Source of the DNA: Methanotrichaceae archaeon
GTDB lineage: Archaea > Halobacteriota > Methanosarcinia > Methanotrichales > Methanotrichaceae
Length of the DNA: 58,294 nt
NCBI GenBank assembly: GCA_013178225.1
Contig: JABLXE010000020.1
Span: 1 to 58,294 of the forward strand
Reading direction: 5' to 3'
Every line of letters starts with the position of its first letter. The stretch's first letter is position 1. A program made the translations under genes and the position numbers. Positions 21,297 through 28,888 of the stretch are shown one piece after another. The notes under the pieces are model-generated. The model did no database searches. It worked only from the letters and a program-made list of their open reading frames with translations, and was not told the DNA's origin.

Positions 21297-22391
21297 TCAA
21301 GAGCCCAATTGGCCCGACGAAATCCCCCTAAATCTCTCTCCCAGATCGGCCAGTGTTTCTTTCCCGATGATCTGCTGGTTTACCAGTATTCCCCCGTAGC
21401 TGTCAAATATATCTCTTAATTTCTTTGCCCAGATATGCTCGAAGATCAGGATCATGGCCGAGCTATTTGCGGGCATCATATCTCCAATTTTCATTATATC
21501 CTCCGCCTGCAATCCGAAATCCCCTTCGGAGGCAGCCCGGACAGCTTCTAGAGCTCTGGATTTGGCCCTCGACCGTCCACCCAGGCGAAGTCCCGCGATC
21601 GCGGCCATCAGGGCGTCAATTTCGATGATCTCTTCTTCATCCTGCAGGTTGCTGCCCTCAGCAGCGCTAAGCCTGCCGTCTTTGTCTTTGCGCAAGAATA
21701 TGAATGCATCCGGCCTGATCAGCCCGGTCTCAATGATTGGCCTGGCAGCCTGCAGGATGTCGTACGGCAGTATCTCTCCCTCGAATTTCACCACGATAAT
21801 ATGCAGAGGGCCGATCTTGTCAAAGTTGAGTTTACTGGTGTCTATTTCCTCTGGAGATTGGGGCTTGGCCGGTCTCTCTCCTCTAATGAATATTCCGATA
21901 TGCATCTGCTTGGATGAATCGTCCGAAGTCCTTCCGCCTATGTTGTGCCATCTCTCTTCAAACGCCTGCCTGGGAACAAAGCCTTTGCCCATTCTCAGGT
22001 AAGGGTCTTCGAAGTACACATAATCCGGGTCGACATCGAGCACGACCGTATAGTGGCCGTCCTCCCAGTCCTCAGAAAAGGCCTTATCCGATTCTTCCCG
22101 GCTCTTCCAGGCCTGACCGAGCACGATCACCGGATACCCTTTCTCGGTGGAATTTTTTACGTCATCGAGCGTCAGGTTCTCTCTGACATCGGCCTCAAAT
22201 CCCAGCTTTCGGGCAACTCTGACAATGTCCTCCGGATAGGTGCCGGTCTCCGGGGTGGTGTGAAGCAGCTCCATCAGCTCCTTCTCTTCCAGATCTTTTC
22301 CCCAGTAGCTTAATACCGCCTGCAGAGCAGATGCTCCGCAGGAGTACTCAGTGCTCTGGCGGGTGTCCATCAGCAGACGAAATTTTTTCAT
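21297..22391 (-). CDS. C39-like peptidase domain protein
   Basis: Residues 1-150 form a papain-like C39 domain. The active-site Cys lies in STEYSCGASALQAVLSYWGK at about residue 18, the His in EDGHYTVVLDVD and the Asp in FEDPYLRMGKGF. C39 domains normally cleave double-glycine leader peptides, but free-standing archaeal versions have no known substrate. The last 200 residues are a separate alpha/beta part (LHIIVVKFEGEILPYDILQA, then MILIFEHIWAKKLRDIF) that I do not recognise with certainty. It may resemble DUF1269-like or membrane-protein-associated domains. No transmembrane transporter part is present, so it is not a bacteriocin exporter. Confidence 0.75.
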   Translation of the reverse strand: MKKFRLLMDTRQSTEYSCGASALQAVLSYWGKDLEEKELMELLHTTPETGTYPEDIVRVARKLGFEADVRENLTLDDVKNSTEKGYPVIVLGQAWKSREESDKAFSEDWEDGHYTVVLDVDPDYVYFEDPYLRMGKGFVPRQAFEERWHNIGGRTSDDSSKQMHIGIFIRGERPAKPQSPEEIDTSKLNFDKIGPLHIIVVKFEGEILPYDILQAARPIIETGLIRPDAFIFLRKDKDGRLSAAEGSNLQDEEEIIEIDALMAAIAGLRLGGRSRAKSRALEAVRAASEGDFGLQAEDIMKIGDMMPANSSAMILIFEHIWAKKLRDIFDSYGGILVNQQIIGKETLADLGERFRGISSGQLGS

Positions 22392-22613: not shown

Positions 22614-23672
22614 CTATCCAGGCTTTTGGCCTTTGATAAAAACGGTTCTGATAGGATATGGTATATCTATGCCTTCCTGGCCATAGCGCTTGAACAATCT
22701 CTTTATGAATTCATGCTTGATTGGGAACTGCTGGCCGTATTCCGAGGCCCGCAGAATCACCGTGAAATCAATGCTGGAATCTCCGAAATTCTTGTATCTG
22801 AGCGTGGGCTCAAATTCTGGAACGCCTCCGGCAGCATCTCTCATCACCTCTCTTGCCACCTCTAGGGTCACCCGTTCTACCAGATCAAGATCGCTGTCGT
22901 AGCTTACGCCCACGTCCACCGTAACAGAAGTCTCCTTCTCCCGCAGATGGTAGTTGGTGACAATTGCCGAGGCCAGAGTTTTATTCGGAACCAGAATTAT
23001 ATTATTGCTCGGAGATAGCATAGAGGTGCTGCGCCAGGATATATCCGTGACCACGCCTTCGTCACCCGAATCCAGCTTAAGATAGTCTCCGGTGCGGATC
23101 TGTGATGAGGCGATTATGTGCAGCCCGGAGAAGAAATTGCCCAGGGGTTCTTGTATGGCCAATGCCACAGCGATGCTGCCGACGCCCAGGGCTGCCAGTA
23201 TGGGCGTGATATTTATCTCCAGAGCCTTCAGGATGACCAGAATGCCAATTATCAATGCCGCGGCGTTGATCATTAGCTTGAACATGGAGGTTGCCTGGAA
23301 GGCACATCCCTGTTTTCTGGCGTAGTTGGTCACCATATCCCTGGCTATTCCGGCCAGGGCCAGCGTGACCGAAAGGGCGGCGATGACGAGAAGGCCGGTC
23401 TTGAATGCAGACGCGACGCTCTCCGAAAGCGGTGCTGAGACTACGGCCAGATAGAATCCGGCCAGAGAAAACCAAAGAACTGCATACTTGGAGATCGCGG
23501 CAAAGACTATGTCCCCACCCATTCCCCTGGTGTGATCTGCCAGCTTCTCCAGCCAGTGAATAACGAACTTTTTAAATATAAGTCCTGAAATCAATCCGGA
23601 GACGGAGAATATCACCGGCCAGAACCAGTTGCTTTCAAGCAATGCTTCAAATGCCACTCTCTCTATCTCCAT
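22614..23672 (-). CDS. mscS: MscS-family mechanosensitive channel
   Basis: The 352-residue protein has four or five N-terminal transmembrane helices, the glycine/alanine-rich pore helix ILAALGVGSIAVALAIQEPL, and the beta-domain motif FSGLHIIASSQIRTGDYLKL with NNIILVPNKTLASAIVTNYH following. These are hallmarks of the small-conductance mechanosensitive channel. It opens under membrane tension to release solutes on osmotic downshift. The length is slightly greater than the E. coli protein owing to an extra N-terminal helix pair. It is a single gene. Confidence 0.9.
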   Translation of the reverse strand: MEIERVAFEALLESNWFWPVIFSVSGLISGLIFKKFVIHWLEKLADHTRGMGGDIVFAAISKYAVLWFSLAGFYLAVVSAPLSESVASAFKTGLLVIAALSVTLALAGIARDMVTNYARKQGCAFQATSMFKLMINAAALIIGILVILKALEINITPILAALGVGSIAVALAIQEPLGNFFSGLHIIASSQIRTGDYLKLDSGDEGVVTDISWRSTSMLSPSNNIILVPNKTLASAIVTNYHLREKETSVTVDVGVSYDSDLDLVERVTLEVAREVMRDAAGGVPEFEPTLRYKNFGDSSIDFTVILRASEYGQQFPIKHEFIKRLFKRYGQEGIDIPYPIRTVFIKGQKPG

Positions 23673-26043: not shown

Positions 26044-26149
26044 CACTCCTCAAAATGTTCGAATTTATGTTATACAATTGTTAGAAATTTTTCTTATGTC
26101 AGAAAGTTTAATAAGCAATTAAATCTTAATTTTGCTTAGAGGTGATAAC

Positions 26150-26656
26150 TTGAGCGATTTAGTTGTGCTGGCATTCGACAACGTGACGGATGCCGGAATG
26201 ATGAGGGATGATCTCCTTAAAATGCAAAAGGAACATCTCATAGGATTAGATGATGCTGCCGTGGTAGTGAGGAACCAGGAAGGAAAAGTCAAAGTGGATC
26301 AGATCGCCAGCCTGACCGGAGCTGGTGCACTGGGCGGAGCCTTTTGGGGATTGCTGATCGGCCTCATTTTCTTCGTGCCCATATTCGGACTGGTAGTCGG
26401 TGCTGCGGCCGGAGCCCTAGCTGGCAAGTATGCAGACGTAGGTGTGGATGATAAATTCATAAAAGAAGTAGGAAATACCATCCAGCCGGGATCCTCAGCT
26501 CTATTCCTCCTGGTTCGTGAGTCCACTCCGGACAAGGTCATGGAAAACATGAAGAAGTACAAGAACGTCAAGGTTCTCAAGACCTCTCTTTCCAAGGAGC
26601 AGGAGGAGAAGCTCAGGGAGGCCTTTGCAGGAGAGAACGTTCAGGCTTCTCTTTGA
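26150..26656 (+). CDS. DUF1269 family membrane-associated protein
   Basis: The protein reads LSDLVVLAFDNVTDAGMMRD, followed by a long glycine/alanine-rich hydrophobic hairpin (GALGGAFWGLLIGLIFFVPI and GLVVGAAAGALAGKY) and a C-terminal alpha/beta half (GSSALFLLVRESTPDKVMEN). This is the DUF1269 pattern, in which a ferredoxin-like domain is interrupted by a glycine-zipper membrane insert. Function is unknown. TTG 26150 is chosen because gaggtgat lies just upstream and homologues start at this point; TTG 26132 would place the ribosome-binding site inside the gene. Confidence 0.85.
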   Translation: MSDLVVLAFDNVTDAGMMRDDLLKMQKEHLIGLDDAAVVVRNQEGKVKVDQIASLTGAGALGGAFWGLLIGLIFFVPIFGLVVGAAAGALAGKYADVGVDDKFIKEVGNTIQPGSSALFLLVRESTPDKVMENMKKYKNVKVLKTSLSKEQEEKLREAFAGENVQASL

Positions 26657-27034
26657 AATTCAATTGCCGAAAGAAATTGGCGCTTTTCACCCAACTGCCA
26701 ATTTCCTCAATTATTTTTGAGAGAGAACGGGATGAGCCAGGTTGTACTGGTGCTTCTATATTCTGCAAAGTGCCTATATTTCAGCAAGGTGCCCCTTCAT
26801 TTCGAGTCCTGACCTTTGACCATTTAAAAATATATCCAAAATCTGATAGAATCTGAAACATCTGAAACTGGAGAAAATGCTTTAATACCTGCAACGCAGC
26901 ACATTATTATCAGCAAAAATCCGAGGTTCTGCTGCAGATCGAAACCTCTAATGCTCAATCACCTTAATTGGCATCGCTTTGATGAGGCCGGAATGATCCG
27001 ACAAAATAACTTCTCTTTCTATCTTGAAGGGCGA
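26657..27034. other. intergenic region before the ion channel gene
   Basis: No gene is supported. The channel frame is open upstream to 26951, but the residues there do not resemble the family and the signal peptide starts at 27035. A tttaaaaatatat stretch near 26823-26835 and tgctttaata near 26879 are possible promoter elements. Confidence 0.4.
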
Positions 27035-28888
27035 ATGAAAGCCATGCTTCTGTTGGTTCAACTCCTGGCCGTACTGGCGATGGGCACATCTACGGCTTTT
27101 TCCGTAAGCTCAATTGAGGATATTCAGGGGCATATCGATCCCGGAAGATCCAATTTTTATACAATTCCCGGCCTGCAGAAGGGAGATACTCTCTATCTTT
27201 ACGGGAGAGGGACTTCCGGCAATCTGGACCCTTTCCTGGCAGTGGCAAACTCCTCCCTGAACAAGAGCCTTCTGATAGCTGATTTTAAGGCGGAAGTAGA
27301 GCAAGACATAAAAGAAGGTCAGGATCCTCTGGACGCTATTCCCGAGATCGCTGACAGATACTTCCTGGCCTGGGATGATGACGGAGGTGGCGGCTATGAT
27401 GCCGCTGTAAAGTTTCAAGTGCCCGCCGGCGGCGATTACGGGCTGCTTTTCGGCAGCAGCCCTGCTGAAATGACTTTTGGGGACTATCTGCTGACCGTTG
27501 GAGTAAATGCGCCTTCTGTCCTCACCGGAAAGTCTGTGGCCAACCGGGATGGTCTGGCACTGCTGGATAAAAACCTCTCCGGGATTGGCTATGCCGTTCA
27601 GGAGATCCGCGGCAACTTGTCCGCCAATAAGACTTCAACCTTTTATAACCTCAGAGCTTTGAGCGGAGGAGACACGCTCTACGTCTATATCGAGGCTGAA
27701 TCGGGAGACCTAAAGCCGGTATTGATGCTGACGGATTTCGGCAACAAAACGCTTGGCACCGGCAACTGGGGCGGACTTGCGAATAGCGCCAATCTGCTCC
27801 ACACCTTCGAGCAGGGAAGCAAAGGCAATCGCATAATAATTAAGGGCGGAGAAGAAAACGGCAGCTCTACCACCGGGAGCTACAGACTTCTCCTGGGAAT
27901 CAATGCACCCGAAGTATTAGCCGGAAAGGCAGAGGCTGCCGGTCAAAGTATTGCTGCCGAGCCCATTAAGGTTAAGGCAGGGGTAGAACTGGACCAGATA
28001 ACCGCCATCAACCAGCTGGACCAGAACTTCAACGTGGTGGCCAATATCTGGATGCAGTGGGAAAATCCGGAGCTGGCCTTCAGCCCGCAGGAGTGCAACT
28101 GCAGCTTTAAGGTCTATCGCAGCATAGAACAGTTCACGCAGGAGTACGGCTCGAATTTTCCGGAGTTCACCATCTTCAATCAGCAGGGGAATCGCTGGAC
28201 TCAGAACCGGGTAATTGTGGTGCGACCGGATGGAACTGCTACCTATTTTGAACGTTTCTGGGTAACACTGCAGGCCCCGGATTTCGACTTCCGCAGATAT
28301 CCGCTGGACAAACAGGATTTCTACCTGCTCATCGATTCGCTCTATCCTGAAGAATATTATATCTACCAGATCTGGCCCGAGAAGACCGAGATCGGACGGC
28401 AGCTGGGAGAGGAAGAGTGGTACATCACCTCCTCGGACACAAACGTCAGCAGCGTCAAGATCACGGATGTCAACTCTCGCTTCTCGTTTCACTTTCAGGC
28501 GCAGAGACATCTGTTATATTATGCTTTTCGCATCCTGCTTCCCATATTCGTAATAGTGTTCATATCTTGGGTGACCTTTTTCTTAAAAGACTACGGAAAG
28601 CGCGGCGATATAGCAGGCGCCAATCTGCTGCTGTTCATAGCCTTCAATTTCACCATCGGATCAGATCTGCCAAAGCTCGGCTATTTAACTCTGCTGGACT
28701 GGTTCATGTTCTTCACCTTCGTCCTCACCGCATTGATTTTCGTGTATAATCTATCACTCAAATTGCTTGAAGTCCGCGATAAAAAAGCACTGGCTGAGCG
28801 GATCGACAGGATAATGATCTGGATTTATCCCCTGCTTTACATCATGGCCTTTATCATAGCTCCATGGATTATATATAAATCCCAATGA
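27035..28888 (+). CDS. pentameric ligand-gated ion channel with extra N-terminal domains
   Basis: The 617-residue protein has four parts. First is a signal peptide (MKAMLLLVQLLAVLAMG). Second are two tandem beta-sandwich domains with matching segments (GRSNFYTIPGLQKGDTLYLY and KTSTFYNLRALSGGDTLYVY, each followed by a DP- or KP-type LxxLxN/T strand). Third is the ligand-binding domain of the Cys-loop superfamily (AINQLDQNFNVVANIWMQWE, then YPLDKQDFYLLIDSLYPEEY). Fourth are four C-terminal transmembrane helices, M1 with the conserved Pro (FRILLPIFVIVFISW) and M2-M4 after it. Prokaryotic members such as GLIC, ELIC and DeCLIC are cation or calcium-modulated channels, and DeCLIC also carries two extra N-terminal domains. 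The ligand is unknown. Such genes are rare in archaea. Confidence 0.85.
   Translation: MKAMLLLVQLLAVLAMGTSTAFSVSSIEDIQGHIDPGRSNFYTIPGLQKGDTLYLYGRGTSGNLDPFLAVANSSLNKSLLIADFKAEVEQDIKEGQDPLDAIPEIADRYFLAWDDDGGGGYDAAVKFQVPAGGDYGLLFGSSPAEMTFGDYLLTVGVNAPSVLTGKSVANRDGLALLDKNLSGIGYAVQEIRGNLSANKTSTFYNLRALSGGDTLYVYIEAESGDLKPVLMLTDFGNKTLGTGNWGGLANSANLLHTFEQGSKGNRIIIKGGEENGSSTTGSYRLLLGINAPEVLAGKAEAAGQSIAAEPIKVKAGVELDQITAINQLDQNFNVVANIWMQWENPELAFSPQECNCSFKVYRSIEQFTQEYGSNFPEFTIFNQQGNRWTQNRVIVVRPDGTATYFERFWVTLQAPDFDFRRYPLDKQDFYLLIDSLYPEEYYIYQIWPEKTEIGRQLGEEEWYITSSDTNVSSVKITDVNSRFSFHFQAQRHLLYYAFRILLPIFVIVFISWVTFFLKDYGKRGDIAGANLLLFIAFNFTIGSDLPKLGYLTLLDWFMFFTFVLTALIFVYNLSLKLLEVRDKKALAERIDRIMIWIYPLLYIMAFIIAPWIIYKSQ

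Follow-up and report, generated by a model that had tools for sequence, protein, structure and literature searches.

A predicted DeCLIC-type channel in a Methanotrichaceae archaeon with a glutamine at one extracellular calcium site

The window, a stretch of 58,294 nucleotides from a Methanotrichaceae assembly, holds an open reading frame that a sequence-only reading had taken for an archaeal pentameric ligand-gated ion channel (pLGIC) with two additional domains in front, and this raises the questions of whether the gene encodes such a channel and what would gate it. Archaeal pLGICs were reported in 2004 in Methanosarcina (PMC549065), and a 2016 study reported 24 archaeal sequences (PMC4795631). 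DeCLIC is described as the only superfamily channel bearing N-terminal domains (NTDs) that has been characterised so far (PMC12664993). Archaeal members of the superfamily, known since 2004, and the solved DeCLIC architecture are therefore not new; the only parts that a specialist may find new are a glutamate-to-glutamine change in one calcium site and the breadth of these channels in methanogens. Our literature search found no paper on DeCLIC-type channels in methanogens; an earlier listing in the supplement of PMC4795631 is possible.

Domain architecture

The frame is intact over 617 residues (Table 1). Its start at 27035 gives a standard signal peptide, and an in-frame ATG at 26951, which would add 28 residues, is also possible. 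In a phmmer search of PDB sequences, DeCLIC was the best match (E 1.4e-127, 38% identity), followed by sTeLIC and then GLIC. The DeCLIC match covers residues 51-635 of the longer frame read from the upstream start and spans both NTDs, the extracellular domain (ECD) and the membrane domain (TMD), and its E value excludes a chance resemblance. The Pfam model Neur_chan_LBD scored above its cut-off (38 bits, E 1.6e-9), and the Pfam membrane-domain model fell just under its cut-off of 28.1 (23.6 bits, E 7.3e-5). An AlphaFold monomer model based on 49 homologues (mean pLDDT 87.0, pTM 0.78) contains three beta domains and four C-terminal helices, and in a Foldseek search with this model the first 20 PDB places were all occupied by DeCLIC chains (lowest E 2.7e-65; TM 0.81 to 9ev1 across 603 columns), with sTeLIC and GLIC next. 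Pfam, the model and Foldseek all place in this protein the pLGIC hallmark fold, a ligand-binding-type beta sandwich joined to a four-helix membrane domain. The Pro-loop proline P423 and the M1 proline P503 are invariant in alignment A2, and the cysteines of eukaryotic Cys-loop receptors are absent on either side of RRYPLDKQDF. The M1 proline, the four helices, the YPLDKQDF segment and the two beta domains in front that the sequence-only reading had described were all found in the sequence or the model, and its comparison with the two-NTD arrangement of DeCLIC is borne out by phmmer, AlphaFold and Foldseek together. The predicted monomer has both the channel fold and the M2 features, whose absence from a model had been named as the result that would speak against a channel.

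Repeated DTLY[LV]Y strands had also been read as the trace of a duplication. These strands are the equivalent strand in NTD1 and NTD2, and an hhalign comparison of the two domain profiles gave a probability of 99.6 (E 4.6e-24), as against 0.2% for a control comparison of NTD1 with the ligand-binding domain. The DeCLIC lobes are both jelly rolls and are described as largely homologous (PMC12664993). Pfam found no domain in the NTDs of the window's channel; among the NTDs of homologues, a PPC domain was found only in one (L063), at threshold (E 1.8e-5). Two homologous jelly-roll NTDs before the ECD, as in DeCLIC, are indicated by phmmer, hhalign, the model and Foldseek, and we put the probability that the gene product is a DeCLIC-type channel at about 0.93.

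Compared with DeCLIC of Desulfofustis (PDB 6v4a, 6v4s, 9ev8), the protein has the same signal-NTD1-NTD2-ECD-TMD order, fold and pore residues, the same calcium site 1 in NTD1 and EEE in loop F, and the same beta4-beta5 constriction with N and W (GNRW); it differs in overall sequence, in having Q330 where DeCLIC has E347, in a shorter late-NTD1 loop and in its archaeal host. sTeLIC of a tubeworm endosymbiont (PDB 6fl9) shares the ECD and TMD, with 46% identity in the aligned part and a nearly identical M2, but lacks both NTDs. GLIC has an ECD and a TMD of the same pentameric channel fold (E about 1e-26), is about 25% identical and has no NTDs. The Methanosarcina pLGIC is likewise an archaeal superfamily member with N-terminal additions, but these were described as MCP-N and Cache domains, not as duplicated jelly rolls (Tasneem et al. 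2004, PMC549065).

Table 1 Features of the predicted channel gene and of its upstream neighbour (positions in the window)
Feature	Position	Strand	Evidence
Gene for a DUF1269 (PF06897) protein that may be functionally linked	26132..26656	+	Pfam; lead only
Predicted DeCLIC-type pentameric ligand-gated ion channel subunit, 617 aa	27035..28888	+	ORF, Pfam, phmmer, AlphaFold, Foldseek
Signal peptide, residues 1-22	27035..27100	+	sequence MKAMLLLVQLLAVLAMGTSTAFS; helix 2-16 in model
NTD1 (residues 26-157), a jelly roll into which two helices are inserted	27110..27505	+	model; alignment to DeCLIC NTD1
Ca site 1 residue D65 (= DeCLIC D76)	27227..27229	+	kept in 46/46 NTD rows
Ca site 1 residues D115-D116 (= DeCLIC D123-D124)	27377..27382	+	alignment; site from PMC12664993
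NTD2 (residues 180-297), the second jelly roll, a homologue of NTD1	27572..27925	+	hhalign, model
Canonical extracellular ligand-binding-type domain (ECD), residues 303-492	27941..28510	+	Pfam PF02931, model
Q330 replacing DeCLIC E347 (ECD interface Ca site 3)	28022..28024	+	alignment
Pro-loop core PLDK	28301..28312	+	sequence; Cys-loop cysteines absent
Loop F EEE, residues 459-461 (= DeCLIC E479-E481)	28409..28417	+	invariant in 49 rows
M1 helix, residues 493-516, with P503	28511..28582	+	alignment, model
M2 pore helix, residues 520-542: D525 (2'), L532 (9'), A536 (13'), F539 (16')	28592..28660	+	DeCLIC register
M3 helix, residues 553-580	28691..28774	+	model
M4 helix, residues 584-615	28784..28879	+	model

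Host, distribution and a decayed relative

The window corresponds to one contig (C13) of a 2.98 Mb genome assembly that is 99.8% complete. Relatives of the channel are frequent in Chloroflexota, as might be expected if the contig were a bacterial contaminant in an archaeal assembly. However, PurL encoded on the same contig is 72-84% identical to its counterparts within Methanotrichaceae and about 40% identical outside the family, which rules out this origin and demonstrates that the contig is genuinely Methanotrichaceae; moreover, the closest relatives of the channel are from methanogens (support 100/99), and another member of the family, Methanotrichaceae PFL3, holds a remnant that is 75% identical to the channel. 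Contamination is accordingly given a negligible probability. No relative of the channel was found in viral contigs. Near PurL, only the PurS/PurQ stretch is common to the relatives, indicating that the channel gene lies in a region specific to its lineage.

When the genomes of 84,980 species were scanned with our first alignment as the query, 66 loci were obtained, in Chloroflexota, Methanomicrobiales, cyanobacteria (Xenococcus, Pleurocapsa), Nitrospirota, desulfobacteria, and gamma- and alphaproteobacteria; the shorter matches among them are without NTDs. Within the Halobacteriota sample, full-length DeCLIC types occurred in 18 of 393 species (window included), most of them in Methanomicrobiales-like families, and a distant short type in 8 more. 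The DeCLIC architecture is thus widespread in methanogens and is not a bacterial oddity. Neur_chan_LBD was found in 20 of the 393 species, about 5%, 18 of which carry the full-length DeCLIC type, so that the description of such channels as rare in archaea was fair, although the presence of archaeal members was reported already in 2004 and 2016. Any match was found in only 6 of 238 members of the window's own class, and the Methanotrichaceae genomes searched yielded no more than two copies, one of them intact and the other broken. This sporadic occurrence suggests that the channel gene is dispensable.

The broken copy, that of PFL3 (L041:3596-4452), supports dispensability. Its match spans only query residues 324-614, with both NTDs missing, and a frame shift and a stop (TAG) within the loop F motif interrupt it; its 5' half is gone, with 3.6 kb of unrelated DNA upstream. 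Since PFL3 is a metagenome assembly, some of these lesions could be assembly errors, which would not easily account for the missing 5' half.

In the maximum-likelihood tree, the sister group of the window's protein consists of 16 methanogen proteins (100/99), of which three come from named Methanomicrobiales, and one archaeal family (f11) groups with Chloroflexota. A single archaeal clade was rejected (p-AU 0.011, for a group named after the tree was seen). The separate placement of the archaeal groups makes two or more transfers into archaea likely, in agreement with the several independent transfers proposed in PMC4795631; as to donor and direction, we infer that the genes probably came from bacteria. 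Two loci (L116:4982-6790 and L117:6092-7885) form a second archaeal DeCLIC-type group, placed with Chloroflexota and outside the main clade of methanogen channels. Other methanogens (L004, L092-L099), one of them in Methanotrichaceae, have distant short pLGICs that are about 22-26% identical, and the length of the open frame in L099, 527 aa, suggests another N-terminal addition.

Pore, calcium sites and gating

The M2 register was anchored on L554 (9') and F561 (16') of DeCLIC (PMC9897478). With this register, L532 and F539 correspond to the 9' Leu and 16' Phe gates of the DeCLIC type, A536 to 13' and D525 to 2', the latter forming the acidic inner mouth with D519, and these residues are conserved in the alignment. 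The same segment reads LLLLLLFSFT and LLLLVLFSFT in two Methanolinea types (L009, L010), as against LLLFIAFNFT, and the replacement of 13' Ala by Leu points to an altered pore in that branch. The sporadic distribution and the decay in PFL3 would also fit a non-conducting surface receptor or former channel; this is very improbable for the window's protein, which has an intact frame and conserved gate and pore-lining residues.

Calcium inhibits DeCLIC and stabilises its NTD (PMC12664993, PMC9897478), and the conditions under which DeCLIC itself opens are still uncertain (PMC9897478). Site 1 of DeCLIC consists of D76, D123 and D124 (PMC12664993). The corresponding acids are all present here, D65 and D115 being found in every NTD-bearing row of the alignment and D116 in most, and E460 takes the place of the loop F residue E480 of site 4. 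E347 of the ECD interface (site 3), in contrast, which is among the main calcium ligands of DeCLIC, is replaced by Q330; the position is occupied by E in 53 of 54 aligned sequences and by Q only in the window's protein. We treat the glutamate as a property of DeCLIC itself and not of the architecture, and Q330 as variation within the family. The PFL3 remnant reads NQKDQNF at this position, likewise with Q, and the change therefore probably predates the split between the two lineages. The earlier suggestion that the channel senses calcium is thus supported at NTD site 1 and weakened at the ECD interface, where the main acid has been swapped.

By analogy with DeCLIC, the protein is likely a cation channel kept shut by extracellular calcium. 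Five copies of the gene product would form a homopentameric channel in the cell membrane, probably selective for cations, with both jelly-roll domains and the ligand-binding-type domain pointing outward. Calcium bound to NTD1 would make the outer ring more rigid and favour a closed pore, and loss of calcium, or some other signal, would loosen the ring and allow the gates at 9' Leu and 16' Phe to open. Since the interface glutamate is a glutamine, control by calcium would depend chiefly on the sites in the NTD and in loop F, and the response is expected to differ from that of DeCLIC. We give even odds to calcium being the main gating signal. A DeCLIC-type channel gated chiefly by another signal, such as pH or an organic ligand, with calcium sites that are structural, has a substantial but somewhat smaller chance of being the correct description: the interface glutamate is lost, PDB titles list the relative sTeLIC as gated by alkaline pH and an open form of DeCLIC as solved at pH 5 with calcium, and PMC9897478 states that it could not tell whether the role of the calcium site in the ECD is functional or structural. 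On the other hand, the acids of NTD1 site 1 and loop F are strictly kept, apart from D116, which is kept in most rows. The methanogen homologues, one of them with a natural change in one calcium site, offer ready tests of which site controls gating.

Neighbouring genes

A gene for a DUF1269 protein lies 378 bp upstream of the channel gene on the same strand. DUF1269-type genes also neighbour the channel in Chloroflexota (L006, L008) and lie near it in the methanogens G319 and G521 (about 0.5 kb), G531 (5 kb), G424 (7 kb), G448 (10 kb) and G343 (11 kb); these methanogens have two or three copies per genome and the Chloroflexota two to four. A rough calculation for four of ten lineages with a DUF1269 gene within 12 kb gave P about 6e-6, with grouping, distance and subtype pooling chosen post hoc and with bacterial loci whose flanks of about 5 kb show no DUF1269 left out. 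A strong DUF1269 gene is present in 13 of the 18 DeCLIC-type genomes of the phylum sample, and also in many channel-less members of the window's class. A search of the DUF1269 literature found nothing useful, and we regard the association as a lead. It is conceivable, if doubtful, that the Methanotrichaceae branch lost the ECD interface ligand and kept the NTD site, that calcium control thereby shifted to the NTD, and that the neighbouring DUF1269 membrane protein, recurring in methanogens and Chloroflexota, is a partner of the channel.

In four methanogen loci (L101, L102, L105, L037), a gene resembling AI-2E family transporters lies directly upstream of the channel gene. In the window, a C39-type peptidase domain protein with a DUF1269-like tail is encoded on the minus strand at 21297-22391, and a gene for an MscS-type mechanosensitive channel at 22614-23672, also on the minus strand, lies 3.4 kb from the pLGIC gene.
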